64,000 nt of DNA from Isoetes taiwanensis. Taxonomy: Eukaryota > Streptophyta > Lycopodiopsida > Isoetales > Isoetaceae. The first letter of the stretch is position 1, and every line of letters starts with the position of its first letter. Both the position numbers and the translations under genes were made by a program. This document shows, piece after piece, positions 8,416 through 64,000 of this stretch. The stretch lies in the NCBI GenBank assembly GCA_021234155.1, contig JAJEKV010000912.1:1-64000 (forward strand), in the 5' to 3' direction. A model generated the notes under the pieces. The model searched no databases and had not been told where the DNA came from. It worked only from the letters and a program-made list of their open reading frames with translations.

Positions 8416-9289
8416 CCCTTAACTCCTGAGCCCCGGGGTTGAAGCCCATGCCCTGTGCCTTTTCTTTGCCAAATCTAGATTTCTAAATCTTACAATAGTT
8501 TGTATAGGCTTTGCGGCTATTACGCTCTCTTTCAATGGCAAAAATACATGGCGAATTGATTTCCATGACTTTTCCTTCTTTCTAGCATTTGAGCTTTGCT
8601 AATCCATCTACGAGTAGCAGCGCTAGAAGCATCTGCAACAGTCTTCAACATCTAAGAATCATCTTCAGCATCTGCAGCAGTCACAAATCCATCTCTGAGA
8701 AAAGAAATAAGTCTTGAAGCACCTATGAGGATCCATCTCTGCAGGTCTGAAACATCTTTGCAAATCCATCCCTGCAAAAGTTCGAAACAATCTCTGCAGA
8801 TCCATCTCTGCATCAGTTGCTAAAACATCTCTAAGATCCAAAGCAATCCGATCGGTGAAGCGAGGGGTTACGTGTTGAAACAGAGGCAAGAAGATGAACA
8901 TAGTCGAATATTCGGGGAGACTATCAGTGATTCTGGCATAGTCCAGTGATTATCACAGTAATCACTAGGATATTATCTAAAAAAAGAATATTCAAGAAGT
9001 TCTGCATTATAAACATCATGTGATCGGCGATTGGGTAGTGGTTTGGATCGAGATAACCTAGAAGGACCCAATGGTTAAGGGGAGCATATTAGTTCCTTCA
9101 AAGATTTAGTCTTAGCAACACAATTTATATTGCGAATGGGATTTGATTTTGGACGAGAACCAAGAACCAAAATCCAATCTTTTTTCAAATTAGTAGTTGG
9201 AAGAGCAAAAATGATTTCTTTCACCAGTTGAACGTTTTAAATCGACATTAGAAACTTAAAAATATATAAACAAGCTCTGAAGCTTTTGG

Positions 9290-9487
9290 CTATGGAGATT
9301 TGCGAGAGGAACTTCGGCGTTCAAGTATATAAGGGGGAATCTGGATATCCTGCTCAGGGGCACGACGACATTCTCTCAAAACGTCCTGAATGGCAGATCT
9401 AGAAGCAGCCAAAATCTGGCTAAGTTCACCGATTTGGAGCTCAACAGCGGCAAGCCCGTTGTCAAGCTGCACGGATTTTCTGCCCAT
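9290..9487 (-). pseudogene. BPS1/ROH1-like C-terminal fragment (duplicate)
   Basis: This 65-codon frame, GRKSVQLDNGLAAVELQIGE… to …SAIQDVLRECRRAPEQ, is a second copy of the last part of the gene at 10573-11624. The upstream part of the gene is absent here, so it is a truncated duplicate. It stays open past the point where the fuller copy loses two bases (TTGGCTGCTTCTAG here against TTGGCCTTCTAG there). It therefore preserves the C-terminal helix (SRSAIQDVLRE) that in BPS1-like proteins ends the chain. Confidence 0.7.
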
Positions 9488-10195: not shown

Positions 10196-10740
10196 GGCTG
10201 GTATTAGTATATATCAAAATTTTATCCATTTGAATTTTACAAAACAAATACCCCTATTCAATGTACTATTCAATGTATGCTTCTAAATATGTCCTAACAA
10301 TACGCAAAAAATTAGTTCGAGTAATTCTTGGAATGAAGGGGAGCATATTTGTTCCTTCAAGGATTTAACAATTTACATTGCCAATGGGATTTGATTTTTG
10401 GACGAGAAACAAGAACCAAAATCCAATTTTTTTTTCAAATTACCTAGTAGTTGAAAGAGCAAAAAATGATTTCTTTCACTGGTTGAACGTTTTAAATCGA
10501 CATTAGGAACTTAAAATATATAAAAAGCTGTGAAGCTTTTGGCTATGAGATTTGCGAGAGGAACTCCGGCGTTCAAGTATATAAGGGGAATCTGGATATC
10601 CTGCTCAGGGCACGACGGCATTCTCTCAAAACGTCCTGAATGGCAGATCTAGAAGGCCAAAACCTGGCTAAGTTCACCGATTTGGAGCTCAACAGCGGCA
10701 AGCCCGTTGTCAAGCTGCACAGATTTTCTGCCCAATTCTT
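10196..10740. repeat. Segmental duplication, copy B
   Basis: This is the partner of the duplication at 8186-9487. It is uninterrupted and runs from the GGTATTAGTATATATCAA phrase into the 3' coding end of the BPS1-like gene. Confidence 0.75.
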
Positions 10741-11624
10741 CAGCAGACTGCTTAAGCTTCCATCCGTCCTCCTGATAGCTTCCCTTGCGCATTACTTCGT
10801 CGAACAATTCATGCAGAGCCAAAACGTGGGCATCCATGTCGGCCAATTCCGTCGTGAAGGAAAAGCCCCTTTTGTTTTTCTGCTCTTCATCTGCTCCATA
10901 AGCATCCGATTCAGATCGAGCAACGAATTCGCCCAGATGGGCTCCTTATTGATGATCAATTCCTCCACATTCTGCTTGGGATTCATGGAAAGGGCGCGGG
11001 ATAGGACCTGCAGAATGAAAATGGTGGTTATTCTGGTGCCATAGAATCCGGCGAGAAAGCTGCGCTGAGATGGGTGCCCATCTGAAGGCCGAGGAGATTT
11101 TCCTCTGCGATTATGGATTCGACTTCGCGGAGCAATTTCTCGCAGGTTTCGAGGCGGGCTTTCTGCAGGAGAGCCGGCTGATTTCTTCGTCTCTGCCCTC
11201 AAGAGCTTCCATGCAATTTTGAGCAGAAGGCGAGTCCGTTTGCACTGCCCTTTGTTGAACGATCCGTCCCGCTCCAGAGATTGAAGAGCCAGATGCACAA
11301 ACATTTGATAGTACCTGATATCCGCGATATTTTTCCGCAGCACATTGCAGACCTCCATCAGCTTCTCCACCTCGCTCTTGGCCTTCGTAATCTTAGACTC
11401 AATCGCGTGCTTTGCAGGCAAAATTTCTGGCAGAAGGGCTCCAGATTTTCCCTTGTACTCAGCACCAAATCTAACGCTTGCTGGATCCATCCCAGACTCA
11501 CCGCCCCTGCCCGCCCTAAGCTCTGCAATCCCTCGCTCAGATTCGATTCGAACTCCTTCAGATCCGCTGGTCTTTCCTCCGGATTTGAATACAGAGACTC
11601 TGTTGTTGCCCCTTCTCCTACCAT
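10573..11624 (-). pseudogene. BPS1/ROH1-like (UPF0496-type) protein gene, frame-broken
   Basis: The product resembles plant BYPASS1/ROH1-like helical proteins, a plant-specific family of about 350 residues. BPS1 itself is linked to a root-to-shoot signal; the function of this copy is unknown. The start at 11624 reads MVGEGATTESLYSNPEERPA, then FESNLSEGLQSLG…VSLGWIQQALDLVLST, matching the family's N-terminal helix with its LSLSWL-type core. The frame then shifts near 11420 to KSEVEKLMEVCNVLRKNIAD (family: LDVCNALSxEI), LALQSLERD and KARLETCEKLLREVESII. It shifts again near 11040 to QNVEELIINKEPIWANSLLDL, and finally near 10846 to HVLALHELFDEVM…LAAVELQIGELSQ, with a stop at about 10573. At least three indels break one otherwise continuous, intronless, GC-rich coding sequence. 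The colinearity suggests recent decay or assembly indels. Confidence 0.6.
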
Positions 11625-12210
11625 TTTTACTCGGATTCTTGCACCTGGGGATGAAATTCGAGGGACCCAACAACCGATTTGCTCAGATTTTTGCTTGAAG
11701 AGTGAGATCCGAGGGGAAAATTGTTCAAATCCACGAAAAATTTGATGATTTGACGCGACGCAGTGCGGGTTTGGGCAGATGGAGTCCTGCTTGTGTGTAT
11801 TGGGATTTATATGAAGGAATGCGTGTGCTTCTAGAACTAGTGGGTAGGCTTTCTGAGAGCACCGCTCCTAACAGCTTCTTTTGGAGGACTGTTCAAAAAT
11901 TGGTCTTCTGCTGCTTCGCTTTGACACGGAACCTCGTATTTTGACTCATTCATGACCTCTCTCTTACGTCATAACATATGCCAACGAATTATTCAAATGC
12001 CACCAACGGACGAGATTTGTCTTCAGATGTTGTCCGCAGGCCTCAATTTAGATTTTGTACAAGGGGAACTGTGCATTTCCTACGTGGAAGCAGGTTAAAG
12101 GGCATTCTGTGGCAGCGTTGAAGGGTGAGGCACGTTTCAGAGAAAGAAATTTTGCCCCGTGGCATTGCTTGATAGACGCACACAACGGAATGCTCTTTAA
12201 CTTGCTTTTA

Positions 12211-13125: not shown

Positions 13126-13689
13126 AAGCATAAAAGAATACATGATAAAAATATTTGAGTCCTGTTTGTTCTACCGTTAACATTCTGTAAAATAAAAAGT
13201 GCCAAGTGGCACGCGTGCGTGATAAGCGAATGGGGCTTAATTGCGCCTATCTGTTTTTACGTTTTGTATATAAGAATGTCCTTTTACAAAACATTACGGC
13301 GTGGAAGCGTTAAACAAAGTTGCGTATTAAGCGGGAGCAAATCATTGAAAGCAGAGCAAAGGAATATTCCTCAAAGATTCCCTTTTTTTACAAAAAGGGG
13401 TAAAATGAGGTTAAAAAAAAAAAGATGCATGAAATTCTATTTTGACCCCGAAATGACTAATTTTTTTTTTTTGAAGGAATTGACTTTTTAAAGTGTCACT
13501 CTTCTTAGCAAAAGAATGTTCTTAAAGTATGTTTTAAGAGAGAAACTCTAATTTGAGGAGGATAAAATATTTAACAAAAAATTGAAGTAAGTGCATAATT
13601 GAAAGCTGTAGTATTCTCAAAATTTGAAGATAGAATCTTCATATTCACATCAAAATTTCTGATCTTTTCTAAGACTCGATTATGTGCAA

Positions 13690-16600
13690 AAGTGTGAGGA
13701 GTGATGAGAGAGGGATCCGGGGCGTCCTCATGTTCATTTATGCCATCGTCATCACCTTCACTTCTTTCATTTGTCCCTTTCGAGAAGTGCTTGAGTTATC
13801 TTCCTCATCACTATCAAATGACGGTGAAGCATTGTCACCACCTTCTTCATCATCTTCTTCATAATTACAAGCTTTTTAAGCAAATTGATAGTCTTAAGGC
13901 GTGAGCGATTGTGATTTCAATTTAAAATCATAGCACAATATAGTCACGTCATTAAAGGTTCGGCTCGTCCTACAACCCACCTTCTTGGACTTTCTCCCTT
14001 TTCCTTGGCTTCTCATTTCTAACTCATATCTACCTTCAAAAGCATTTTTCTCGAGCGTGTTGCAAGCCAATGAATCTGAGTTTAGTGACTAAGCCTTCCT
14101 CCTTGCATGTCAAGCACACTTTTGCTATCGTGAAGTCGACCTTTGTCATCCTCCCTCGATCGGAAGAGCAATTAGCATACCTTTGGTAATTTACGTGATA
14201 TTACCTTGGGGCTCATTCTGCGTCTTGGTAAAGAGGTACATGACTCGGTCCTCCTCGTCTTCTCGAGGTGCAAATGTAGCATTGCTTGGACCTGCTTGGT
14301 CTTTGGGGTTGATGGAAGGTGTTAGGCCATTGAAATGGTTCTTGCAACTGTCTTAGAGCTATATTTTGTACAACAATTTTTACATTAGAAAGAAATTACT
14401 CCACCACATCCAGATCTTCTTCTAAGAAGTACTTAAAACTGAGGAAATTCCATTTTCAATGGCTTTTAAGGATGACTCTGGGTACTTTTCTTCCGCTTGG
14501 ACTCCTTAGGATTTTTGAGAGGAAGTTGCTCAAAGACGTTCTATGAAGGAAGTGTCCGGAATATATTTAAGGAAGCGTAATCCCTCTAGCGGACTCCGGT
14601 CCTTAGTTGTGGTATACTTCTTCCCTCGTGAAGAAGCTTTGGCCATCCTTCAAGTAGAACTTGATATGATGTTGAAAGGTGAGATCATTCAACTTGTTCC
14701 TGACTTGTTCTCTGTTTGAGCGTTGAGAGAAAACAAACTCTCCGAAATCAGCGGTCTCTTTAAGAAGATCGACCTTTGGAGTAGGAGTGTAAGAATCTTC
14801 AATAATTTGAACTAAAGAAGGAAGGCGTAAAGCCTTCTTCCTTCTAAAGTAGCGCCTAAAAATCTTGAACATTTGGTCAATCTGATCATGAGTGTGGCCT
14901 ACAAGTAAGAAACCGAGCTTCACTTTTCTAAGATCCCTAGCTCCACTAACATGGCACAAGATGCATAAAAAGTGTTTGATTCTTGTTCTCCCTTGTAGTA
15001 TTGTCAAGTTGCGGATAAAACTCTTGGTGATAATTGCTCTTGCTCATACGGGACCTTGTTAAAATTGTAATTGTGAGGTTCGGGTCACCATGCAAGTTTG
15101 GATACGTCAAAAAAACTTTGCACCTTAGACTTCCTTTGAAGACCATAGCTCCTACAAGGTGGACCTTAACAAAACATTCCTCGGCACATCTTTAGGAATG
15201 TTCAAGAAATGTGGTAGAGTTGTTTTTGGTCCATTCCATCAATCACAAAGACATGTATTGCGTTGGACGTTCAAAGAGCTTTTTTCTATGCTTGGCAAGC
15301 TTTCTTCTCTCTCTGGCCGCTTGTTGTTCACGATGTCGGCAAGGTTACATTGCACAATACGTAGAAGAAATCAGGTCAAAGCATTTTCTCAAAAACAAGT
15401 GAGAGATTGGAGAACATGAACTTACTTTTTTCGACCCTCTGTCTTTCACGGGTTTCTCGTTGACTCTTTAATTACGCACACCTCGAGCAAGCGGACATTC
15501 TATGTTTTCTAGGAATTTTCACAAGACCTAATTCACTTTTTCCGGTGCGGTGAAGTGTGAGTAAGAGATGTCTTTGAAAGTGCAAGTCTCTTTGTACTCA
15601 TTAAAAACATCTTTTTTGGTGATGTTATCGGTTAAATGATACATGTTCTTTGTTAGGTAGCTTCTCACATGTTTCTCTAAAATATTTCTCCATCCATGAC
15701 ACAAAGACAAGGGCATGCATGGTTACAACTCTTCTTGGTCCACAATGATCATCGATTGCTGGATTTTTGTCCAGTCTTTTGTGTATTCTAGACATTCTTG
15801 TGGACCCTAAACGGTGGACAACCATAAAACATTTCTGGCAAACTTCTTGACGGTTAATGTAGTGCAAGAAGGTGTTGCGGTCTGGTCTTACATGATAAGC
15901 TAAGTAGGCATTACAGTGCCGCCAATGTCATGGGGCAGAGTTGTCTCTAATCGCCGTAATTTAGCCATGTTAAATCTGTTGATGCAACCCAATGAGCAGC
16001 ATTTAGTTCTCAAAAGTCTCCTCATTTTACATTTCATCCATAAGATTTCTTCTTCTTGCGAGGAGCAAGCCCTCAAACCAAAATCCACCTTGAATTTCTT
16101 TGAAGATTGGCTTGAGAACATGTAATCTCTTTGTTCCTCGTTGGTGTCTTCATCTTCTGATGAAACTTCTACTCTGGGGGTGACTTCCTCTGTCCTGAGT
16201 GGTGTGCTTGTAGAGGAAAACAGACCACGTGAAGTTGTTCCCGGAATAGGCGGGGGTACAGTGTTAAAGGGTGGTGATGGCCCATAAGAGGTTGTGGCAT
16301 CAGCTGTTCTTGTACCATCTTGAAAAGGAGTTCTTGCAAACATCTCCTTTAGCGGACTGAATTTGGGTCTGCAAATCCATGTGTCCAACCGTTGTTGTGT
16401 GAAGAGGAGTGCATCTTTGGAGCTTCCGTCCTCATTTGTAGTGAAGTCTGGTGAGAGAAATTGTAGTGAATCTCACGGTCTTACATGTTTTACATGTTCC
16501 TTGTATGTTTGCAATCAAAGGAGGCTTAAACTACAAAGGGGGGGTAGTTTGTTCTTGAGTTAACTTTGTTGTGCGGCTTCCAGCAAACCGGATGGAATAA

Positions 16601-16880
16601 AGGGTGGTGGCAGCCCGCCCGAACTAGTGGTGATTCTTTGAAGGAGATGCCGCAGGCTCGCCTACGTGACTTGGTGACTGGAAGGGTGGTGGAAGTCCAT
16701 ACGCGGCCGACCTGGGTGTCTTCAGGAAGCAAGAACGCATGAAGCAGCAGGTAGGAGCCTGAGAATGCCTTCTGCAAGAACCTACTGGTCCAAGCGGTTC
16801 CTCTAACTGCACGCAGCTTGAGACAACTAAAAGGTGGTGGAAGTTTGTTGACGGCGGGTTTGTCATCTTAAGAACCAAAA
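13690..16880 (-). CDS. DUF7869-family protein gene, spliced or frame-broken
   Basis: This is a plant member of the DUF7869 family. Its molecular role is unknown, but the conserved acidic blocks look like an RNase H-fold (transposase-like) core. The N-terminus (16880-16200) is proline-rich with repeated LPPPF phrases and YGPSPPFNTVPPPIPG. Then come LWMKCKMRRLLRTKCC (16030), QEVCQKCFMVVHRLGSTRM (15850), the Cys pair SACSRCALIKEST (15490), VIDGMDQNKT (15226-15246), the frame VKVHLVGAMVFKGS… then NLTITIL (15100), QLDNTTRENKN (15000) and KLGFLLVGHTHDQIDQMF (14880). This is the family's usual motif order. A GTAAGT donor follows the Cys block at about 15395. The tail (14280-13690) includes an acidic EEDDEEGGDN run. 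Several frame changes occur, so intactness is doubtful. It lies head-to-head with the methyltransferase gene. Confidence 0.8.
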
Positions 16881-16998
16881 CAAAGGTAGAGTTTAGATAA
16901 TGTTTCCATCAAGCAGAGCTTTTCTTATTCCTAATACAAGCCCCCTACTACAAGTAGAACTTCCTCGCGAACAATTAAGTTTAAAAGGCAAACTAAAA

Positions 16999-17338
16999 GC
17001 TATTCCCGAATACACTAGGAGCGTAGCAATTAAAGCCAAGTATTCCATTTCCACTTCACATAGAAAACGAGCAAGACGGAATGGACACCTTTAAAAGGAA
17101 ATTTTGGCGCCAGGTTGCGTATTCGATCGAAGGAAGCTGAAGTCGCCAAATTTGAATATAATATTCAGGAGCTGTATTAAGATACTCATAGAGAAAACAT
17201 GGAGAGGTGAGTAAGAAAGTACAAGGTACAATCATTTGTGTGTATCTGTTTCTTATTAGGAATACACTTTCGGGCTTTCGAAGTAGTGTATTCGGAATAC
17301 ACCTTCCTTTCCTCGGCGAAAGTGTATTCGAATACATT
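16999..17338. repeat. TGTATTC-GAATACA palindromes, upstream cluster
   Basis: Palindromic or near-palindromic copies lie at 17000-17015 (TATTCCCGAATACAC), 17240-17267 (TGTATCTG…GGAATACAC), 17286-17302 (GTGTATTCGGAATACAC) and 17321-17335 (AGTGTATTCGAATAC). They sit between the divergent DUF7869 and methyltransferase genes and belong to the same family as those in the methyltransferase introns. Confidence 0.75.
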
Positions 17339-17729
17339 CGTGTTCTTATGTTTTGTAAGGTTGTTTTTCCGTGATTTTGTAGTGACTTTAGGTGTTTTTC
17401 CTTTTTAAAACTTGTTTAGACCTGTTTTTTGTCAAGATTAAAGTGTTGTTTTGGCATTTTTGTCCTCTTTTGCCCTTGTTTTTTCCTTTTTCGCAAGACA
17501 TTTTGTATTACGAATAGTTTTTTGCCACTTCGCTTTCTCTTACAAGATCGTGTTTACACACAATTTGCAATGCATAAGCAAGAAGGCAAAGAAGAAACAA
17601 CACAAGAGACCAATTAAAATCCCAACTAAAACCGCACTCCACGAGAAGGGTTGAGGAGACATCTGCGCTTTGCCATCTCTAAAAACTTTCAAACTCAATG
17701 GTTTTTTACAAAGGGGTACTTGGAAAGTA

Positions 17730-19915
17730 CAAGACACTTACTTTCTTCCTACATGTTCCGGCTTCTTTGAGCCAAAAGGTACGATGAGAGGGAATTTGTT
17801 TGCATGGGCACCATCCAAATTGGTGAAGTAGGCGGGGAGTCCTACCACGTAGGGAGACTCGCTTTTCGTGACATCCCAAGGCTTTATTCATGTTGATGAA
17901 TCCTATTTTAGAGTGGTGAAAAGTAAATCCTCATCCTCTATACAAGTATGTTTCTCCACTACCAAGAAGAGGTCGCTTCCCGTGCCATCATCAACTGCGT
18001 GTTCAAAGCATAACGCATTTAAGACTTCCCCAAATGAGTCATCACAAGGGGAAGAGGATGACCAGCCCGAGCCCGAAAGCGGTTCCTCATCACAACTGCA
18101 GGAGTCCATCATGGTCCGTAAAGGCCACCGTCACCACCAAAAAAGCGGCCAAAGGGAAGCGATTCTTCGCTAAAGAGCCTAAAAAAGCGGGGCGGCTTTA
18201 ATTGGGTGAAGGATATTTCGAGGAACCTAAGAAGAAGAAGGGGAAGGGTAAAGCACCGGTGTTGCTATTAAGAAAAAAAAAAGTTGACAAGGCAGCTGAA
18301 AAGATGGAAGAGATTAACCCACACAAGTTTGTGCAAGGTGTCATTTATTACCAGTCCCACTTCAATGAAGCTTCCACTTAGAAAAATGAAGGCTGGTGAA
18401 AGGCCACTTGAGGTTCGCAAAATTTATGCCGATCATAAGGAACCGAAAGATGAGAGGAATAAGGAGCAATCCAAATGCTCATGTGGCTAATAGTTGTCCT
18501 TGTTGGACAGGGGAAGAGTGCAAAACCCCCAGGGACTATAGCAGAAAAACGCAGAGACCTACACTCACTCGTCTTGGGAGGCAATCATTTTAAGGCAAGA
18601 AGGCAACTTTATAAAGAGAAGAAGAACCCGAGGTACCTCTCGAGTCCTCTACTGCCGCATCTCATTGTGGTCTTACTGGAGTGAAAAGCCAAAATCGCTG
18701 CCAACACCCACAATCTTACGACAACGAATATAAACTAAAGATGAGCTTGGCCGACAAGATCCGGTTCATGCCGGGGAGTACGTAATATTCAAGGAAAAGT
18801 ACCGGTGTGAGGACTGAAGAAACCAGCATTTTCCCTTGGAGCTTATAAGGGCGTGTGCCATTGAATGCTGCCGAAATATGGAAGAGGCCAACAAAAAGTC
18901 TCTCATTGTACGACAACCCAGTTCGATTAGCTTTTAGAGATGGCAAAGGTAAGCACAAAATGTATTCGAATAGCAAATCAACTATTTAACGTGAATCTTC
19001 TTTGAGCATTTGGGAACTCCGGGACCGAATATTTACAATGTTCGGCGAGGGAGTTAAAAAGAGCAAAGGAAAGGACGACTAAGAAAAAAACCTCAGACGT
19101 TACCCAAAAAAATGACCATTACCGTCTGGCGGAAATGCAGAGCTTCTCCGAGTGCGGAGCTTCTCGGCAGCTTCTCCAAAAAGTTGTTGATAAGGAGTTT
19201 AGCCTAGAAGAAATGTCAAAGGAATTACACAAGTAAGTTCTCGACACAAACATTAGTTATTGCATGTTAGATTCCCAAAACATCGGCGTAGCTAGTGTAT
19301 TCGAGAATACACATGCCTTCCTTTACCGCGGGCAATGTGTATTCCGAGATACACATTGCTTGTCTCTAGAAAGGCATTATGTATTCCGGATACACATTGC
19401 CCGTGAAGGAAGGCATGTATATTAGGAATACACATTGCTCCTCGAATGTTGGCTGTGTATGTATTCTGGAATACGCATGCGTTCCTTTAGAAGAAGCAAT
19501 GTGTTTGTCCAATGTGTTTGTAGTAGAACTATTTTCTGCATATTGTTTCGAGGTAGCATCACAAGTTAACGGTTTGTATTCCGAATACAAATAGCTTGGA
19601 CTTTATTTGTTTTTCTTTTACGTTGCCTTCATTCTTTCGTTTAAACTCATTGTTTTCCTTAACGTCTGCAGCCAAAAGAGCGTCATAACATGTCAAACAT
19701 GTTTGATGGAGCGACTAAACGTCGACACACATGGAAAGGTGCAAGGAACTCTACCCAATTGCCACATCAGCGAAGCGCGTTGTCCAATATTCACCAAATT
19801 TTGAGAATTTGGGTAATTACACTTAGAATTCCTTCTCTCTTGCAAAAGCGATCTCTTGCCCAGGTTGTTGTTTTGTTTTTCTTTAGAGCAAAAGAAAAAT
19901 AAAGACCTACCAAGG
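17730..19915 (+). CDS. Upstream exon-like blocks of the methyltransferase locus
   Basis: These coding-like blocks precede the catalytic exons, and I infer they belong to the same transcript. At 17780-18180 the frame GDSLFVTSQGFIHVDESYFR leads into an acidic, serine-rich linker (EEDDQPEPESGSS). At 18120-18300 is a Lys-rich stretch (KKAAKGKRFFAKEPKKAG, EEPKKKKGKGKAP). At 18470-18590 is a Cys-containing block (ANSCPCWTGEECK). At 18740-18948 is LSLADKIRFMPGS… to SLYDNPVRLAFRDGK, ending at a GTAAGC donor. At 19100-19232 is MQSFSECGASRQLLQK then KEFSLEEMSKELH, ending at a GTAAGT donor. An acceptor (TCTGCAG, 19671) continues in frame into NQKSVITCQTCLMERLN. I recognise no named domain in this N-terminal half; the basic and acidic tracts suggest nuclear or DNA-binding linkers. 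Frame breaks occur inside several blocks. Confidence 0.45.
18949..18975 (+). other. Splice donor followed by palindrome
   Basis: The exon-like block ends with the codons for FRDGK at a GTAAGC donor (18949). The palindromic core TGTATTCGAATA lies 12 bases further on, at 18961-18972. This is the same arrangement as in the other two introns of this locus. Confidence 0.5.
19233..19671 (+). repeat. Intron carrying a cluster of TGTATTC-GAATACA palindromes
   Basis: The interval starts with GTAAGT and ends with a pyrimidine-rich TCTGCAG; joining its flanks keeps the reading frame. Within it are palindromes at 19295-19312, 19336-19354, 19378-19397, 19414-19434, 19459-19475 and 19572-19591. Each has the form (A/G)TGTATTC-n-GAATACA(C/T) with 0-3 central bases. 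They are spaced 20-110 bp apart and separated by short related sequence (AAGGCAATGTG or GGAAGGCATGT). Confidence 0.8.
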
Positions 19916-20089
19916 GCTTTATGAATTTGGTTAGAAACAAACACGGGAAGAGAGGTCGTTAGATTGAAAAGAAGAGCTGTTGAGAGCCGAACCATCCGAC
20001 TTCGAGAGATTGCATGTTTGATCAAAACAATTTATATTCAATCATTCATGGTGATTATTGCGAACCTTGTCCGAACGGTTAAGCCAAGG

Positions 20090-20830
20090 ACTTTACTTTG
20101 GTTATTCTAGATCTTCCCTATGGGTTTAAGCTTAAAGGAGGCGGAATCTGACGACCAGCCCTTCAAATTTTCAGAGTTTAATGCTTTCATTGAAGGAATC
20201 AAGCAGATCTCAGCGGCCAAACATTGGCGTTTAGTTACCGTTCCATTCGAGCATGCGATGCGGCTTGGTGGAATCAGCTTTCAAAAAATCACTTTGGTTC
20301 TCGGTTCAGGCGGGGATATGAAAACCTTGTATGCGGTAAGTCTTATTCGAATACAATTACGTTTCTCTTTAATTCGTGAGTGTGTATTCGAATAGTATTT
20401 CTGTTCTGGTTTTGAATGCTTCACTTTAAATGCTTCACTAGGTACAAAGCGAACATCAACTACCATGGTGGAGGACCAAGGTTGCTCGTGACAAGGTAGA
20501 GTACCTTCATGTAGCTTATTGGAGTTTGATGGGAAGAGGACCATGGATCACTTTAACTTTCTGCTTTGTCAAAACTTTTCAAGCGTCCTAGAGTTTCCAG
20601 CGGTCTTCAGAAATTGCGGGACCCAAATTGCACAAGGCGGGATTGTGAATCACTACGGAAACCACAAAAAGCTCATCAACCATCTCTGGACATGTTTCTC
20701 GTCCGGAGATTGGAATGCTGATGCTTTCTCACGGTTCTCGTACTACTATCGCATGTGCACTTAAGAAGGGCGCAAATGTGTAGCCCGTGGATATTGATAA
20801 GGAGGTCGTGCATTTTGTGAAGATGAGGCC
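20090..20830 (+). CDS. Beta-class DNA N4C/N6A methyltransferase-like catalytic region, spliced
   Basis: This region appears to encode the catalytic domain of an amino-group DNA methyltransferase (N6_N4_Mtase type), transferring methyl from S-adenosylmethionine to adenine N6 or cytosine N4. Visible motifs are DLPYG (20110-20124), a form of the catalytic [D/N/S]PP[Y/F]; FSEFNAFIEGI…KHWRLVTVPFEHA; an in-frame intron (20336-20441, GTAAGT…CTAG) joining MKTLYA to VQSEHQLPWWR; DKVEYLHVAYWS; NHYGNHKKLINHLWTCFSSG; then GDWNADAFS, a one-base break, GSRTTIACALKKGANV and PVDIDKEVVHFVKMR. The last part is the SAM-binding FxGxGTT motif with its following acidic strand. Motif IV before motif I is the beta-class order. 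Frame breaks after DLPYG, near 20560 and at 20731, plus a TAG at 20781, make this copy probably inactive as read. Confidence 0.72.
20336..20441 (+). other. In-frame 106-bp intron with two palindromes
   Basis: The GTAAGT donor and TTCACTAG acceptor flank 106 bases. Removal joins ACC TTG TAT GCG to GTA CAA AGC without changing frame. The intron contains TATTCGAATA at 20344-20353 and again at 20385-20394. Confidence 0.75.
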
Positions 20831-20899
20831 GGGTGCCTTACCTACTTTACTAGATGAAAATCAAGAGTTAGGGCCAAGTCTTCATCGATTATGCTAAAC

Positions 20900-21110
20900 T
20901 AACGTCCTCGGAGATCAAAACCTCCATTCTCCAGCTCACTAGGCGATGAGGCAACCTTTGGCGAGCTTAAAGAAGTAGCTTTAGCTACCATTCAGAGGAC
21001 AAAGAGGATAAAAACTCAAGTCTCCAGCAAAGGAGGCGGATAGAGCAGGAAGGGCGAGAGATGAGAGAGCAAAAAAAAGAATGGGAGGACTATGATGTAG
21101 ATCTTTGACT
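20900..21110 (+). other. Possible C-terminal coding tail of the methyltransferase gene
   Basis: The frame GDEATFGELKEVALATIQRT followed by Lys/Arg/Glu-rich residues runs in the same direction after the SAM-binding motif. It resembles a charged C-terminal extension. Nothing fixes the true stop. Confidence 0.3.
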
Positions 21111-21546
21111 GATGCATATAAAAAGTATCATTATTTATTACAATGAATCTTCAATATTGATGTACAACAATTTATTAAAACATAATACTTTTTTCCTTTC
21201 TATTACGGTGCTTTTTTTGTAATGCTTTCGGTCTCTTCAAGTCTATGCCTAAATTTAGCTATTTTATGATTTCTATTTCATAAGTACAAAGTTTTTCGTC
21301 TAATGATGGGCCAAAATGGCATGAAAAAATGTGAACCTCCATAAATTCTCAACAACTATCAAAAAAGGCTTATTTTAGAAACATGGTATTTTTTAAAGGG
21401 AATCTTTGAAGCAGGAGTGATGCAACACTCCGTTTAATTCAATCGTGTTGTTGTTAGCGTGGTCGTGACATAGATAATGTGTAAAAAAAAGAACATTCTT
21501 AAAACGTGAAGTTTGTGTTAGGGTTTACTCCTACGACTCCCTCGCT

Positions 21547-30805: not shown

Positions 30806-32504
30806 CTAGAGAAGGGACATGTCAATGGAGGGATCTCTGTGAAGCTCTGACTGGAAGATGTAGAACATATGCTTGCATGGAATGAAGCTTCCCTTTGCAA
30901 CATGTTTCTGATAATCGGGACATGTGCATGAAGGCTCTTTCTTGATGCTAATAGTATATGCATTGCCATTTCTGTTCAAACCGAATTCCACATGTCTCTT
31001 ATGAACAATCACATTACTTAGAACTGAGACATCCATGTCTTTGCTTTGCTCAAATTTGGTTCGCAATTCTACTAAGTCTAATCCTACGTTTTTACGCTTA
31101 CCATCCGTCTCATGATAGAGTGTTGACTTCCAAGGCTGTAAATATCTTGGACATCTTCATTTTGACGGGTGTATGTGGTTCTACTCAATCCTTCCAGATT
31201 ATAGCCACCCTTTTCCAAAGTCTCGAGCTCATGAGGCTTGAATTTGACACCTTTATGTACAGGCCACAAAAAGGGACGATTAGGTGTGGAAACCATATCA
31301 GCATTTGGGTACCATGTGCACCTGTAGTTGTCAGGACAAAACCAAAAAATTGCTCACATGTTCCTCCTCTATAAGACCTTGTACCATAATAAGATGGCGG
31401 CCGGCAATGATAGCCCTTTGTTAATCATTTGTCACATTTTTTTACCATTTCTGAAAACCACCGCCTTGACATCTTACTTTCTCGCCATCATTTGTTCTCA
31501 CGAATGGCCGGTTAGTATCAAAGATTTCTCGTCGTGCGTCAACAGAAATTGACCCAAATAAATTTTGACTACCGAATCTGTCTGCGCTATTCTAGGTATA
31601 TTTCTTGCTTGCTTATGCGGTCTATATGTTCCAAACTCACCTCTGGTGTAGAGAACATTCATGCATTTTCTCTTTGATATTGTTTGATCATTCCCACTAG
31701 AACCACACTTGGTAAACCACAATCGCTAACTCCTGCATATTTGCATCGGTGACCTCCTTACTCTTAATACTTAATCTACCTTAATCGAGAGAAGTGTAGA
31801 TATTCTGGTCCTGATCCAACAAAGTTATGGTCGAGGTATGACTTGTATTTACTACTTTGTAAGATAGCTTCTGTTAAATCAAACAAATTAGCATCATATA
31901 GAGTTAAAGTTTTTTTGTAACCTGTAGCTGCTAACCAACTTGCATGTCTACTTTTCGACAAATTAGTATATGCATAGCATCTTCTATTAAGGCACAAGCT
32001 TTCATATGATTTTCCCATCGACTCACTCTTTGATGCCACCAGGCCATCCATGAGCATAATGCATTGACATTTGATGCAGAAACCTTCTCTAGAAGGCAAC
32101 CTGTCATATAAAGATACAATTTATTTGGTTTATCTGAGTTTCTCCATTCCCTGCAGACTTTTATAAACTCATCTCTATATTCTGGATTGAGATGCTTCTT
32201 GGCCTGCCTCTGCATACACTGTTCAAAGTGAAAGACACAAGAGCACTCTTTTTTGCACACTTCTTTACCCTCAAAGAAAACATATCTAACTGCTATCCAA
32301 TTTGCACAGGCTTCATCGACCATAAATCCATGAAATTAAGCGGGGCTCGTAACCCTTAGATATCATCACTTTATTCAACTTTTTCCAGAATTTTCTTTGT
32401 GACTGGGCATCTTCTGTTTTCATATCACAAACTGCTATTGTGACCAAACTTCTTAATCTGTAATATGATAACATTATATTAGTTAATATTAAGACAAAGT
32501 TCAT
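30806..32504 (-). pseudogene. MULE-type transposase / SWIM zinc-finger protein remnant
   Basis: This is a decayed Mutator-like (MULE/FAR1-type) transposase or a domesticated relative. From the high end: QRKFWKKLNKVMISKGYE; then, after a frame change, FMVDEACANWIAVRYVF with CVFHFEQCMQRQAKKHL (32323-32200), the metal-site region of the DDE core where MULEs read D-x-x-x-A and H-x-x-x-x-x. LCSWMAWWHQRVSRW and a GSGPEYL tail follow (to 31800). A linker at about 31720-31084 precedes the SWIM finger CTCPDYQ…PCKHMFYIF (30928-30869), which has the full CxC…CxH ligand set. At least four frame breaks separate these pieces. No terminal inverted repeats were identified. Confidence 0.75.
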
Positions 32505-38260: not shown

Positions 38261-39002
38261 TCATTGCATCATGCTCTTGATCTTTTTGCAGACAATGCAA
38301 CTTAGACAAATGCAAATTTTTGGATGAACAACCATACGCGATGCTACAACTTTGCACTGCGACAAATCAAACTTGTCCACTGCCTCTAGTATAGCATTTG
38401 TGTGGCTTAAATGCATCCTTTCTTTTGAACGATCACGTTGAATGTTGAAGCCAAGACAAGAACGGATATTTTCAAGATCAATCGTCTCAAATGTTGATAC
38501 TAACTGCTTCTTGACAGAGATTAGAAAATTCATATCATTACAAACGAGAATATTATCACCAACATAGAGTGCAACGAAAATGAATGACTTGCCATGATGC
38601 CTATTAGAAAGATTAGGATATGCATGAGATAATCGAAAATCAATGGAACAAAGCATCCGTCTTCTCATACCATTTCCTTGAAGCTTGTTTTAACCCATAA
38701 AGGGAACGATTCAACTTACAAACCATTTGCTCCTTTCCTGAAAGTGCAAAACCTTTGGGATGTTTCATGTAAATCCCTTCTGTGATATCTCTGTTAAAAA
38801 AAGCAGTCTTCACATTCATCTGATGAACTTCCAAGTCAAATTGCACTGCAAATGCTAACAATGCACGAACAGTAGTCAAACGCACAACTGGAAAAAAAGT
38901 TTCTTCATCGTCAACACCTTCAATTTGTGAGTATCCCTTGGCCACCAATCGAGCTTTAAACGTATCAAAAGTTCCATCAGCCAACATTTTGGTCTTAAAC
39001 AC
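38261..39002 (-). pseudogene. Copia reverse transcriptase domain, catalytic Asp lost
   Basis: Two overlapping frames cover the RVT_2 domain. The first holds GTFDTFKARLVAKGYSQIEG, TTVRALLAFAVQFDLEVHQM and IYMKHPKGFALSG. The second holds KSFIFVALYVGDNILVCND and LVSTFETIDLENIRSCLGF. The frame change falls near 38655. The first Asp of the YVDD metal site is Gly. Confidence 0.88.
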
Positions 39003-39028
39003 CCATTTACACTTGATTGCTCTTCTTC

Positions 39029-39670
39029 TAAAAAGGAAGGAAGGAAAGGGAAAATTTTAACGTCCACGGAACCCAATCGGGTTATGGGACTAAGTACATA
39101 AAGGGACGAAGTCCCCGGATCGGGTCCAAACAAGAACATGGGCGAAGCCCTTAAACCAAAGCACACAACGTGAGCAAGACCACAACCATCATGACTCTAA
39201 TTAAAACCACACGAAAAAAACCGTTGCTGTGATGATTATGGCTGCTCACCGATCAAAAATCCATGCCGCTGCACAAGCAACAAGCATACCTTCATACCTC
39301 CGCCGGACAAGGCTTCACCAAAGCGACTCCGAACGGTAACCTCTTTCACCGGGTGCTGGAAAATAGACGCCTTAACGCCGCGCTTAGACGAGGAGTGGAA
39401 GGTGGCGCCAGAGAAACCGCCAGTGGAAATCCCATACCTGGGAGGTGCCTCCGCTCCCCTATCCTCCGCCCCCGCGCCCGCCAAGACTTCTGTGTGTATG
39501 CGGAGGTGACATGCACTCGAGTAATACCACAGCGCCATCCTTCGGTATCCTTCTTCGCCGCTGCTCCAACGCCATCCATCATGCACCGGGCCAGGTAGGG
39601 CCTCAGCAAAATACTCGGTAGCGCCAGCGCCAAAAAGCCAGCGCCAAGGTAAGGGAGAGGAGGAACGAAA
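39029..39670 (-). mobile_element. Unidentified insertion of about 640 bp inside copia pol
   Basis: Copia pol reads …WTITELP up to about 39671 and resumes as RRAIKCKWVFK at about 39028; in intact elements these phrases are adjacent (TELPxGRRAIKCKW). The sequence between is GC-richer and unrelated to copia. Read on the minus strand, it ends in two strong stem-loops with TTCG loops: GGGCTTCGCCC (39140-39150) and GGGACTTCGTCCC (39103-39116), followed by an A/T- and CTTCC-rich end. This fits the 3' end of a non-LTR element (LINE or SINE), but I cannot name the family. No clear target duplication was seen; GGAAAGG and CGAAAGG at the two edges are only suggestive. Confidence 0.6.
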
Positions 39671-53740: not shown

Positions 53741-56700
53741 TCGTGACTCAAGGAAGCTTAAAACTTTTCCAAAATCAATAATGGCCCTCCTGGATCAGGT
53801 ACTTTTAGGGTGATCAAACTTTGACATATAAAACTGGAATTTGAGAAAAGTCATTTTGGAATCAAACAAATTGGTTTTTCCAAAATCACTAAAGTCCCAT
53901 ATGAAGTGAGAAAAGTCATGGCCGAGCAAAAATGGCGAGCAAAAATGACCTTTTGCACACACCTTGTGAGATTTTTGAGATGTGATTGGTGGTATAGATG
54001 ATCAACAAGCAAAGGAAACCGGGGTGGAGATTTGACTTGATTTGAATAGGGAAGGTTGAGAAAATGTAGGTCAAAGTCGGGTCAAAAAGTTGGCCAAGTG
54101 CCAAAACGTAGAGCCAAAATTTGCGTGATGGAGTTTGATAAGGAATCTTGAGTTGGGATCCAGGGCAGCAACTTCAAAAAATAACCCCTAGATCATGTGC
54201 ATAGGGTTTAAATAGCAAAAAAAGTTTTAGTTTCTCCGTAAGCAGCCGAGGCCTCGTGAAAAGAACAAACTCGTGGATGCTTATGAAAAAAGGTCTTTTT
54301 ATGTATTTTCTTTGAATGTGTAGGTCTCTAAGGTTTTTATGAAGATGAAATGCAACTATCTGAAAAGAATATAGCTTGGAATAAATATTTTGGGTTTTGT
54401 TTTTAGTTTTTAGCTTTAAAAGCACAATGCAGATTACAAAAGATGAATATACAATGGTGACAACAACTTTCCGTGCAAAGACTATGCATTATAGAAATGT
54501 AACACAAGAAATTTGATAGTGTTAGCAAGGCATTACCAAATTCAAACATATAATAGTGTTTGAAAGTAAAATCCAGGTCCGTCCGAGCCTTTAGTGAATC
54601 TTTAACTACCAATGAAGCCGAATGAAATGATTTTTGGGTTGTAGTTGAAGTGCCTCAAGTCGAACAAGTCACACCGACGCATCTTCAATCACGAAAGAAA
54701 GAGCAGAGCAAATTTTGGAATAGAGCAGAGCAAGATAATATCGAATATCAAAATGCGCCAAGATCACGAGAGGTCTATCTCCGAGGGGACGCGGCCGATT
54801 TGATCCGCTTTTCTTGGCTTAAGAACCGTTTCTTCCCAAAAGCTAGCTCTATTTGAGTGATTTGAGGCCCAAATTGAGCAATTTCTATCGAATCAAGTGC
54901 CACAAAGGATCCCCATGGTTTCGAAAAGGTTTAGGAGCTAATTTGGCTAAAAATTGGGGGATTCAATCAAATTTAGGCAACTAATTGGCCGGATTTAGCA
55001 AGGTGTTCCCTATTTCTTAGGGTTCATCAAAAATTCTTAAGGGTGATATATCCCACAGGCCTAAGTGGTTCTCAAGGCCCCCAGATATAAGGAATAATGC
55101 GGCCCACTATTAAATTTATGTGTTAATGCAGAGGGGACACCCACCCAGGTCCGCGCCCCCACGCCGCCAACGGAAAAATGGGGGGTGACTCGAACTATGC
55201 GTAAATAGATAGGGTAGATAGGCTAGAATAGGTTTTTTATTTTTGGGCACGCATCCCAAGAATCCAATTTTGAAGGTCTTCCCAAGGGTTTTTTTTTTGA
55301 ATTTTAAAAGACCAAGTTAGCTCTTTTTTTCCAAGCTTTCCATCTAGAGGGTTTTAGGTCAAACTGAAACATTTGAATTTTGGTCCCTTTTGACCCATGG
55401 TCAATGAATATTGCAACATAGGGATGGTGAAAAGTCATAGGAAAAAAGATGGGAAAAGGGTGTAAAATAGGCTATACTAGGGTTTAGGAAGATGAAATGA
55501 GAATGAAAAAAAGCTTTCTTTGCCTTTGAAGGTTTTCAAGATCACTAGGGACAATTCTCAAATGAAGGTGAGATCAATAAAAAATAAGTAGTAGAATGAT
55601 GAGAAAAGGTCTCAAAAGTGGAAACAATGGTGAAGGAAAAGTTTTGAAGGCTCTTGGGATATAGAAAGGGGAATGTAAGATGAATGGAATGAAGAAGAGA
55701 TGGGTACCTCAGAGCACTTGATCTTATCTCAAATTGTTTCTAGGGCTCAATTCATACCTCCTAGTGAAGATAGATTTGCTCAAAGCCTAAGGTCTTCCAA
55801 ACTTTTATAAGGGTCTTCCAAACTTCAAGGCTAGAACAAGAGCAAATTTCACTTCTAGGGTAGCATCCTCATGTGTGTGACTTCAAACTTCTCAAGCAAG
55901 CTTCATAAGGTTTGAGCTTTGGTAAAATGTCTTGTGCCTCCTTGATAAACTTGCTATAGCCTTTGCCTGGTCTTCAAATCAAAGGAAAATGTTAAACTAA
56001 TAGGAATGTGTCTAGAAAGGTGTTTTACCTCAAGGAAAAGACTAGGCCATAATAGGAGATCCCAAATGTCTTCCAATCTTGGTCAAATGTCTTCCAAACT
56101 CGATGGGATCACAATAGTTGGAACTTTTTCCTTGAAGGAAATATAAATGAAACAAAGGTTTTGATACATAGATGCTGGTCTATGTTGCCAAAAATGGGCA
56201 ACATCTCCTCAAAGGAAAGAATATTGGTCCCCAGCCTAACAAATGTAAATTTAGACCGAGGAACTTCAGATGTGGTGCAAGTGATGAGTGATGTAGAATG
56301 ATGAAAGAGAGTGGCAATGAGTATGAGATGAACTCGCTGTTATGATGGAAATGTGGTGCGAGCATTGTAGGGAATAAGAATAAAGGAATGGAAGGCTGAA
56401 ATGGTATGAAGGGCAACCGATAGGAAAATTATATATGGATAGCACTCTAGATGGAAATGGAAGAGAAAAAGAATGAACCCGCCATGATATGACAAGAATC
56501 AAAGTTAGCATGAGTGCTAAACGAGATGTGGAAAAGTATATATGGATAGCACTCTAGAACTCCAATGGAGAAGCAAGGTCTCATGAAGAATAAGCCAAGA
56601 TGAAAAGCGATGAAATGTTTTGACAAATGGCCCCGGCCATGACAACATAGAACTCATTAATAGGTAATAATCAAAGTCTTTATCCCTTGTGGCCACATTC

Positions 56701-56829: not shown

Positions 56830-58190
56830 AAGTGAAGAGGCTCAAGCTGTGCATGCCGAGGCCAATATCTTTTAAGGTGTTGAATATTAATGGGATTTGG
56901 CAAAGCTCTAATCCCCGTACTCAAGATCCGCCAACCTATAAGATGAGCAGCCAAGATCTCCTAGAATCTGATAAGGGCCTTCCTGTGGGTTTTCAAACTT
57001 TGAAAGCTTTCCTTCACCCGCAAAGATTCCACTTTTAAAACTAATTCCATAGGTGCAAACTTGTCCTCAGTAGTTTGTGAGCAGCCTTTGAAAGCCAAGA
57101 CTCTTAGCCTTCTTCAAAGAAATTGTAATTCTCTCAGAACAAACCTTTCTTCATCTAATTTTAACAGAACTTCATACCTGTGCTTCAAGGCTTCGTAAAA
57201 CTCCAACTCAAGCTTGAGTGCCATCCTTAGAGAAGGTATCTCTAACTCGACCGAATAATGCCTTCTACCCATATACTAAACCGAAAGGTGAGGCATTAGT
57301 AGCTGCTTTAGAAGTAATTCTATGAGCCCAAAGAGCATCATATAATTTCAAGTGCCAATCCCTTTGGTTTTGGCAAACTGCTTTTCTGCAAAATACCCTT
57401 AAGCACTTTGTTAGTAGACTCGGCTTGGCCATTTCCTTGAGGATAATAGGCTGAGCTTTTCACATGCTTGATCTTGAGGCTTGAAACAAGGAAATTAATA
57501 ACTTCATTAATAAAAGTAGAGCCTCTATCAGTCAAAATTTTAAAAGGAATGCCAAACCTAGAGCAAATATTCTCATGCAAAAATCTAGCAAAGAGTATGG
57601 GCATTTGCTTTCCTTAAAGGTGCCGCTTCTGACCACTTAGTGAACAGACCAGAGCCACAACAATGTATTCATGTCAATGAGGATGGGGATTGATAGGGCC
57701 AACATAGTCCAATCCCCAAACTTGAAATGGACCAGGGGAGACAATTCCCTCAGAAGAGGAGCAGGATGCAAGATTCTTTTGCCAAAGATCTCGCATTGAT
57801 GACAAGTCTTTATAATATCATAACAATCTTTAAATAAATGAGGCCAGAAATAACCAGACCTCAATATTTTCTTGGCAGGTTTCACAGCAAAATGACCACC
57901 ACAAACACCTTTGTGATTTTCAGCAAGTACCGTGGCAGCTTCATCTTCATCAACACATCTTAAGAGTACACCATCCCTATTTACCTTGCACAAGATGTCA
58001 CCAACCAAGGAGTAAGTCAAACATTTTAACTTAAACTTGTAAGCTTGGCTTTTTGAAAATTCAGAAGGTATCTCCTGATACTGAAGGAACCTCCTAATAG
58101 GTTGTTGCCAACCTTGAGCTGGTATAGTTGACAAGTCCTGCTCATTTACAACAAGGTTAGTCATTTCTTCTTCTTGTATCAACTCCTCAT
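56830..58190 (-). pseudogene. Integrase of the inner gypsy element
   Basis: Frame at 58182-57637: the zinc-binding HHCC region (NHKGVCGGHFAVKP, IIKTCHQCEIFGKR) then LLRELSPLVHFKFGDWTML. Frame at 57604-57338: the core IPFKILTDRGSTFINEVI, then SSAYYPQGNGQAESTNKVLK with the conserved D and E of the DD35E triad. A C-terminal piece, FPNPINIQHLKRYWPRH-like (…ALPNPINIQHLKRYWP), ends near 56830. One frame break lies at about 57620, and more occur in the tail. Confidence 0.88.
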
Positions 58191-58439
58191 GTTCAAAGTA
58201 GGCAAAGCAGTAAGTATAAACTCGGGTTGTTCAATACATGAATAACCTTTACCTTTAAATCATAAGATTGAAGCCTACAAGCCCACCTATGAAGTTTAGG
58301 TTTTTCTAATTTCTACCATACAAAAAAGGGCATGGGGTTCTCACTGCATGTAGATAGTGGCTTGGGATTTTGTAAAGATGACCCCTGCCTCTCGATCAAA
58401 AAGATGAGAGCAAAGCAAAGACTCCTTTCTATCTTAGCA

Positions 58440-62255: not shown

Positions 62256-64000
62256 TGTTAGCCTAAAAACCCGAATTTTAGTCTAACCTCAAGGAAGCTC
62301 AAACAAAATGGTTAGGACCTCCAGATCACTTAGGGTGATCAATCCTTGACATATGAAGTGAGAAAAGTCATTTTGGAATATTGGTTTTTTCAAAATCACT
62401 AAAGTCCCTGAAACTGAAAAAACTGTCAGAGCAAAAAATGGCCTTGCAGACACACCTTGTGAGATTTTTGAGATGTGATTGGTGGTATAGATGATCAACA
62501 AGCAAAGGAAACTCGGGGTGGAGATTTGACTTGATTTGAATAGGGGAAGGTTGAGAAAATGTAGGTCAAAGTCGGTCAAAAAGTTGGCGCTACAAAACAG
62601 AGCCAAAATTTGCAGATGGAGTTTGATAAGGAATCTTGAGTTGGGATCTCGCGGCAGTAACTTCAAAATAACCCCTAGATCATGTGCATAGGGGTTTAAA
62701 TAGCAAAAAGAGTTTTAGTTTCTCCGTAAGCAGCCGAGGCCCTCGTGAAAAAGAACAAACTCGGTGGATGCTTATGAAAAAGGTCTTTTTATGTGTTTTC
62801 TTTGAATGTGTAGGTCTCTAAGGTTTTTATGAAGATGAAATGCAACTATCTGAAAAGAATATAGCTTGGAATAAATATTTTGGGTTTTGTTTTTAGTTTT
62901 TAGCTTTTAAAAGCACAATGCAGATTACAAAAGATGAATATACAATGGTGACAACAACTTTCCGTGCAAAGACTATGCATTATAGAAATGTAACACAAGA
63001 AATTTGATAGTGTTAGCAAGGCAGATTACCAAATTCAAACATATAATAGTGTTTGAAAGTAAAATCCAGGTCTGTCTCGAGCCTTTAGTGAATCTCTTTA
63101 ACTACCAATGAAGCCGAATGAAATGATTTTTTTGAGTTGTAGTTGAAGTGCCTCACCGTTGAACAAGTCACACCGGGACGATCTTCAATCACGAAAGCAG
63201 AAAGCAGAGCAAATTTCGAATAGAGCAGAGCAAGATAATATCGAATATCAAAATGCGCCAAGATCACAGAGGTCTATCTCGAGGGGACGGCCGATTTGAT
63301 CTCTGCTTTCTTGGCTTAAGAACCGTTTCTTCCCAAAAGCTAGCTCTCGGTTGAGTGATTTGAGGCCCAAATTGAGCAATTTCTATCGAATCAAGTGCCA
63401 CAAAGGATCCCCATGGTTTCGAAAAGGTTTAGGAGCTAATTTCGGGCTAAAAATTGGCGGATTCAATCAAATTTAGGCAACTAATTGGCCGGATTTAGCA
63501 GGTTCCCTATTTCTTAGGGTTCATCAAAAATTTTTAAGGGTGATATATCCCACAGCCAAGTGGTTCAAGGCTCCTCAGATATAAGGAATAATGCGGGCCC
63601 ACTATTAAATTTATGTACACGCAGAGGGGGACACCCAACAGTTCCGCCCCCACCGGCCGCCACGGAAAAATGGGGTGACCGAACTATGCGTAAATAGATA
63701 GGGTAGATAGGCTAGAATAGTTTTTTATTTTTGGGCACGATCCCAAGAATCCAATTTTGAAGGTCTTCCCAAGGGTTTTTTTTGAATTTTAAAAGACCAA
63801 GTTAGCTCTTTTTTTTTCCAAGCTTTCCATCTAGAGGGTTTTTAGGTCAAACTGAAACATTTGAATTTTGGTCCCTTTGACCCATGGTCAATGAATATTG
63901 CAACATAGGGATGGTGAAAAGTCATAGGAAAAAAGATGGGAAAAGGGTGTAAATAGGCTATACTAGGGTTTAGGAAGATGAAATGAGAATGAAAAAAAAG
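62256..64000 (-). mobile_element. 5' LTR of the inner gypsy element (cut by window end)
   Basis: It matches 53740-55515 through the end of the window. Differences are mostly 1-5 base indels and clustered small replacements, for example around the GCCCCCACG phrase at 55160 against 63648. Both LTRs hold a TAGATAGGGTAGATAGGCTAG phrase. The remaining part continues past 64000. Confidence 0.85.

Follow-up and report, generated by a model that had tools for sequence, protein, structure and literature searches.

The window analyzed here, a 64,000-nucleotide stretch of an Isoetes taiwanensis contig (JAJEKV010000912.1), carries near position 20110 what the initial annotation described as an intron-containing gene for a bacterial-type DNA methyltransferase, and the question raised by this locus is how such a gene came to reside in a plant genome and what carries it. 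The two motifs behind that description were both located where it had placed them, DLPYG at 20110-20124 and DAFS at 20720-20731, the latter followed by GSRTTIACALKKG and, past a stop, by PVDIDKEVVHFVKMR. The 106-bp intron that had been proposed is also recognizable as an intron-like stretch with the borders gtaagt..ag (intron c, Table 1); L062, another copy from the same genome, splices in frame at this place (..YENLVW/YKTNINYHGG..), and the position is common to L062, the Azolla-type copy L021, and probably P0002. The DLPYG motif, the SDDQPF and HFNFLL..DAFS stretches, and the GSRTTI motif of the window are spread over three reading frames and interrupted by several stops, and the window copy of the methyltransferase is therefore dead, a pseudogene. 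Its C-terminus, ..DYDVDL followed by a stop at 21106-21108, recurs in L039. When the related proteins P0001, P0002, and P0003 were compared with the window by tblastn, the best E values were 2.2e-28, 9.4e-25, and 2.3e-28, respectively, and five tblastn queries of the reversed window gave a best E value no lower than 0.12. A read-through of the window copy was aligned with P0001 and P0002 at 61% identity (E = 1.9e-36 and 2.7e-34), and its identity to P0001-P0003 was 59-61%. No methyltransferase match was returned when pieces of the window were searched against Pfam or when a crudely joined read-through served as a database query, and the best PDB match of the read-through had an E value of 0.099. 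The Pfam N6_N4_Mtase test that had been suggested for this gene fails on the window, because the read-through protein scored E = 0.08, below the cut-off, and in the area of motif I only, but it succeeds with the relatives (5.2e-18 for P0001 and 7.2e-19 for the spliced L062 protein).

The PF01555 match of the spliced L062 protein covers residues 141-233, in the C-terminal half only, and P0002 also carries this domain. The adenine methyltransferase CcrM (6pbd) was aligned to residues 9-253 of the same protein with an E value of 2.5e-12, and it is in this alignment, rather than in that with Pfam, that motif IV and then motif I are spanned together. The motif order in the element gene is D[LIV]PYGF and then DAFSGSGTT; D[LIV]PYG was found in the window, L062, Azolla-type, and Riccia P0005 sequences. 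Judged from its sequence, the enzyme is a beta-class (motif IV before motif I) amino-methyltransferase of the bacterial type, an assignment made at the outset and borne out by PF01555 in the relatives and by the CcrM alignment. The N-terminal region contains GGSHSAEA, AWDHNND, and RQKMSS motifs that resemble ParB in their order only, and Pfam, PHROGs, NCBIfam, and hhalign gave no support for a ParB-like domain in this region. AlphaFold models of both proteins encoded by the element were too poor for use (pLDDT 39).

A profile search found 51 proteins, including two from the liverwort Riccia sorocarpa and one from the sea star Patiria miniata. In a 30-row tree, which left out 26 of these 51 proteins, a 15-row clade of mostly eukaryotic source was separate from the other sampled rows with a support of 98/97; its rows are the window, P0001-P0004, P0006, P0009, Azolla-type, Riccia, P0008, and Patiria, and P0009 had been labelled bacterial beforehand. 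Because the domain lies in this mostly eukaryotic clade, nothing points to its recent transfer from bacteria. The Patiria protein (P0014) has LDFPETW and lacks the catalytic D-x-PY motif, and it may as a result be inactive or repurposed. Two weak relatives were present in viral contigs, none of the 104 phage records with matches had one covering 80%, and a scan of prokaryote genomes yielded nine loci, namely three bacterial loci and six plant contigs in one metagenome-assembled genome (MAG).

The I. taiwanensis genome (1.66 Gb in 1110 contigs), when searched with P0001, was found to hold at least 150 better-scoring copies of the methyltransferase; all 150 scored matches, from 3184 candidates, had E values of 2.8e-84 or better, and some contained stops. 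Four of the fetched copies are on contigs of 11 to 45 Mb, and because there are many copies, including these four, the misassembled bacterial contig that had been considered for this locus is excluded. The residence in a eukaryote, claimed from the intron, is likewise upheld by the introns and the many copies in a plant genome. The last exon was open in 28 of the 30 fetched loci, which are the best-scoring ones and are biased toward intact copies, with 202-209 residues counted from the anchor. L042 and L052 were missed by the anchor pattern and have no stop in the own-genome search; L060 has a stop within its own-genome match. For the last exons of the 28 open loci, the mean dS was 1.287 and the mean dN was 0.096, giving a ratio of means of 0.074 over 257 of the 378 pairs, with the 121 saturated pairs excluded. 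The last exon of the methyltransferase is under strong purifying selection, and the open last exons together with this ratio indicate that selection continued to preserve the methyltransferase during the multiplication of the element.

The same copies define the unit to which the gene belongs. Their blastn matches to the window start on the left at 13313 for L062 (base 1088) and L064 (base 995) and at 13310 for L063, those of L061-L063 on the right stop at 21453-21457, and the final conserved terminal letters (..CAATCGTGTT) are at 21440-21449; since the own-genome copies match and stop there, the ends of the window element are settled. Exact 4-bp target-site duplications flank both of the own-genome copies with two ends, L062 (GGTT/GGTT) and L063 (TTTG/TTTG), and L063 sits in a copia element. 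The target-site duplication of the Sola superfamily is 4 bp in length. The terminal inverted repeats of L062 are AACAAGATTGCG.../AACAAGGTTGCA..., and the right terminal region has a counterpart in 29 of the 30 own-genome loci. Alignment of the Azolla-type ends to those of the window gave scores of 30 and 30 compared with shuffle maxima of 35 and 36, which is non-significant alone. The L061 transposon copy contains a LINE-like insertion (L061:1085-7700, endonuclease domain 2e-7).

Within these ends, the methyltransferase gene is accompanied by a gene for a DUF7869 protein on the opposite strand in the window, the own-genome copies, and the Azolla-type copies. PF25273 matched a minus-strand frame of the window at 14606-15043 (E = 3.2e-19), ∼5 kb upstream of the methyltransferase motifs. 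The Azolla-type DUF7869 protein gave strong tblastn matches at 13918-14061 and 14630-15873 (4.9e-28), and the Azolla-type methyltransferase exons were matched in order on the plus strand, weakly (0.003 to 8e-6). L062 was matched by PF01555 (9.3e-18) and L064 by PF25273 (5.2e-51); the DUF7869 stretch and the methyltransferase share the same two ends in L062 and L063 and are adjacent in L064. DUF7869 has no named function in Pfam, and no mention of it was found in the literature searched; we take the protein to be the presumptive transposase. The motifs are left over from an autonomous DNA transposon whose second gene contained them, and the identity of the element as a transposon is close to certain. 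The original description of an intron-bearing methyltransferase gene in a plant genome stands, but the gene is the second one of an 8.1-kb transposon and this copy of it is dead. As for the two origins that had been offered, carriage by a mobile element is correct, whereas horizontal transfer, at least a recent one, left no trace in the tree.

Table 1. Features of the decayed transposon copy in the window.
Feature	Position	Strand	Evidence or remark
Decayed DNA transposon copy, end to end, 8137 bp	13313..21449	.	blastn of own-genome copies
Left target-site duplication GTTA, decayed	13309..13312	.	3/4 letters match right GTTG
Left terminal region, AACAAAGTTGCGTATTAA...GGAATATTCC..TCAAAGATTCCC	13313..13385	+	Same in L062-L064; resembles Azolla-type left ends
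DUF7869 pseudogene, presumed transposase	13918..15873	-	PF25273 and tblastn
Remnant of the intergenic palindrome array (GTGTATTC..GAATACAC)	17001..17340	.	Arrays at the equivalent position in L062, L064
Methyltransferase pseudogene, N-terminal region to stop (start approximate)	17780..21108	+	blastn to L062-L064; Azolla-type exons by tblastn
Intron a (gtaagc..ag)	18949..19006	+	Absent from Azolla-type copies
Intron b, containing second remnant palindrome array (19295-19591)	19233..19671	+	
Exon with catalytic motif IV (DLPYG), frameshifted	20008..20335	+	Intact counterpart: L062
Intron c, 106 bp, remnant motifs at 20344-20401	20336..20441	+	
Frameshifted last exon, containing AdoMet motif I (from 20720)	20442..21108	+	tblastn P0001 2.2e-28, P0003 2.3e-28
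Right terminal region	21395..21449	-	15-bp exact inverted match to 13371-13385
Right target-site duplication GTTG	21450..21453	.	

The six plant contigs of the prokaryote scan are filed under the cyanobiont MAG CAKZGI01 (uncultured Trichormus) in the species-representative genome set. Because they hold introns and gypsy (retrotransposon) genes, these contigs derive from a plant or other eukaryote, and the plant behind the loci designated L003-L008 and L020-L026 is probably the fern Azolla, with which Trichormus is associated as a symbiont in the literature. The layout is better preserved in these Azolla-type copies, with a DUF7869 protein of ∼870 residues encoded divergently from a multi-exon gene that ends in the methyltransferase, and the copies share their right ends and their left ends. 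On contig C204 the element sits inside a gypsy pol frame; removal of the element and one of the 4-bp copies gives a 360-aa pol frame, compared with 247 aa when both 4-bp copies are kept. A target-site duplication was found in one of the three Azolla-type copies with both ends and in neither of the other two.

An 18-bp palindrome, GTGTATTCCGGAATACAC, occurs in 2585 exact copies across the I. taiwanensis genome, and the reversed sequence occurs in none. It is located between the genes and in introns, with three exact copies in L062 and four in L064; L061 and L063 have no exact copy and have four and three, respectively, at two or fewer mismatches. At the same tolerance, the palindrome was present upstream of the last exon in 25 of the 30 own-genome loci, and the reversed control in 0 of 30. 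The window contains GTGTATTC 12 times, 11 of them inside the element (binomial 1.5e-9), and because the palindrome was picked after inspection these clustering P values are post hoc; the binomial and array computations took 21451 as the right end, two bases past 21449. The first 50 of the 2585 palindromes listed are on 19 contigs, three of which (C3, C23, and C50) also have a match from the list of 150 for the methyltransferase, ∼0.85-7.5 kb from the palindromes. GTGTATTC was absent from the six Azolla-type loci first examined, a result that at first counted against the motif. Between their two genes, the Azolla-type copies have different palindromes, which are often based on AGTCGATGC and form arrays of up to ten, and no such palindromes were present in the stretch examined of L005 and L006. 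The palindrome arrays are family-specific and occupy both the intergenic stretch and introns of the methyltransferase gene.

The explanation that we consider probable overall is an autonomous transposon whose methyltransferase marks its own palindromes. The enzyme would bind the palindromes, guided by its own recognition and by the long N-terminal region, and would place an amino-methyl mark on the promoter and introns of the element, with N6-adenine being a likelier target than N4-cytosine because of the D-x-PY motif. The mark would counter host silencing or prime transposition, and each element lineage would therefore keep the enzyme together with an array to match. Better-kept copies in the genome could mark themselves in this way; the one in the window would no longer do so. 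Taken separately, the self-marking function of the methyltransferase is a proposition on which we are evenly divided. Its widest form, in which a land-plant transposon family encodes a sequence-specific amino-methyltransferase that would mark the palindrome arrays of the family with something other than 5mC, with enzyme and array co-evolving as a private self/non-self code against host silencing, a system active within a single plant at hundreds of loci or more, is tentative and we would sooner doubt than accept it. The palindromes could instead bind the transposase or act as hairpins, and a somewhat unlikely reading of the same transposon has the arrays serving as sites for the DUF7869 transposase or as hairpin regulators while the methyltransferase marks, for example, newly replicated or host DNA. 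The palindromes do fit a dimeric DNA-binding protein and an array between two divergent genes could regulate both, but arrays are also present inside the methyltransferase introns far from the ends, unlike subterminal transposase sites.

A host methyltransferase gene acquired horizontally from bacteria or phage, similar to the cases in rotifers or Marchantia, and captured by or lying beside a transposon would agree with the beta-class domain and with the best solved relatives being bacterial (CcrM); it is nevertheless very improbable given that the methyltransferase and DUF7869 are found between the same ends in L062 and L063 and adjacent in L064 and the Azolla-type contigs, that the copies number at least 150, and that the clade is separate from the other sampled rows. 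The version of this reading in which the window holds one lone host gene is refuted. Bacterial contamination or misassembly has next to no chance of being correct, because introns at shared places, copies on the 11 to 45 Mb contigs of the same assembly, and insertions into copia and gypsy elements all speak against it, and nothing in the window speaks for it, although the Azolla-type copies do stem from a contaminated MAG.

The idea of self-modification by a transposon is already in print for algae, since the available part of PMC12477816 (which cites Iyer 2011 and Petroll 2025) suggests ParB-plus-methyltransferase transposon proteins for brown, green, and red algae and proposes that the algal accessory protein binds and modifies its own element. 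Sola1-1_Ec32 of Ectocarpus and the algal transposons are like the present element in that the transposase is encoded on one strand and a methyltransferase, predicted to make 4mC or 6mA, on the other; they differ in that ours is from a land plant, has a DUF7869 partner, and is 8.1 kb rather than 21.5 kb in length, and in that its likeness to ParB is confined to motif order, whereas the palindrome arrays and the dN/dS evidence belong to the present element and not to the algal account as far as its available text extends (PMC12477816). The VANDAL transposons of Arabidopsis are alike in layout only, with family-specific arrays of short motifs in introns and upstream regions that are bound by the VANC proteins and co-evolve with them; according to the available portion of PMC5735166, VANC are anti-silencing proteins that cause methylation loss and the motif is a 9-mer in the same orientation, compared with palindromes and a methyltransferase here. 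The N4CMT of bdelloid rotifers shares the permuted (beta) N6_N4_Mtase domain, the introns, and the eukaryotic residence, but it is described in the accessible text of PMC8885841 as a host gene with a chromodomain and an SPPY motif that marks transposons, whereas the present gene is transposon-borne and has D[LIV]PY rather than SPPY. DIRS1-type retroposons are also mobile elements with an adenine-methylase domain, but they are retroelements with a tyrosine recombinase, and the methylase is described as inactive in the part of PMC3537659 that was available. Within the literature searched, and as far as that search extended, the land-plant family and its pairing with DUF7869 are new, as are the number of copies, the evidence for selection, and the family-specific arrays.

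The reality of 6mA or 4mC marks in land plants is disputed. Here the amino-methyltransferase of a high-copy element is conserved under strong selection and has an obvious candidate target, the 2585 exact palindromes, which provides a test bed for the existence and place of such a mark. If the self-marking proposal is true, a transposon would respond to cytosine methylation by the host with its own mark, and the family would offer methyltransferases with natural, varied candidate targets.

Several other features were noted in the window. A direct pair of LTR-like sequences of ∼1.7 kb, 91% identical (53805-55512 and 62330-63998), reaches the window end and encloses a gypsy-type integrase zinc-binding domain (57640-58230, minus strand). 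A Copia-type reverse transcriptase fragment (RVT_2, 8.2e-41) is present at 38643-39056 on the minus strand, and a SWIM zinc finger at 30809-31156 on the same strand (4.9e-5) is perhaps the remnant of a MULE transposase. A direct duplication with 90% identity occupies 9077-9486 and 10336-10734. Among the ten frames scanned, the likeliest piece of a host gene is a 296-aa open frame at 10795-11682 on the minus strand with a ROH1-like match (2e-6).
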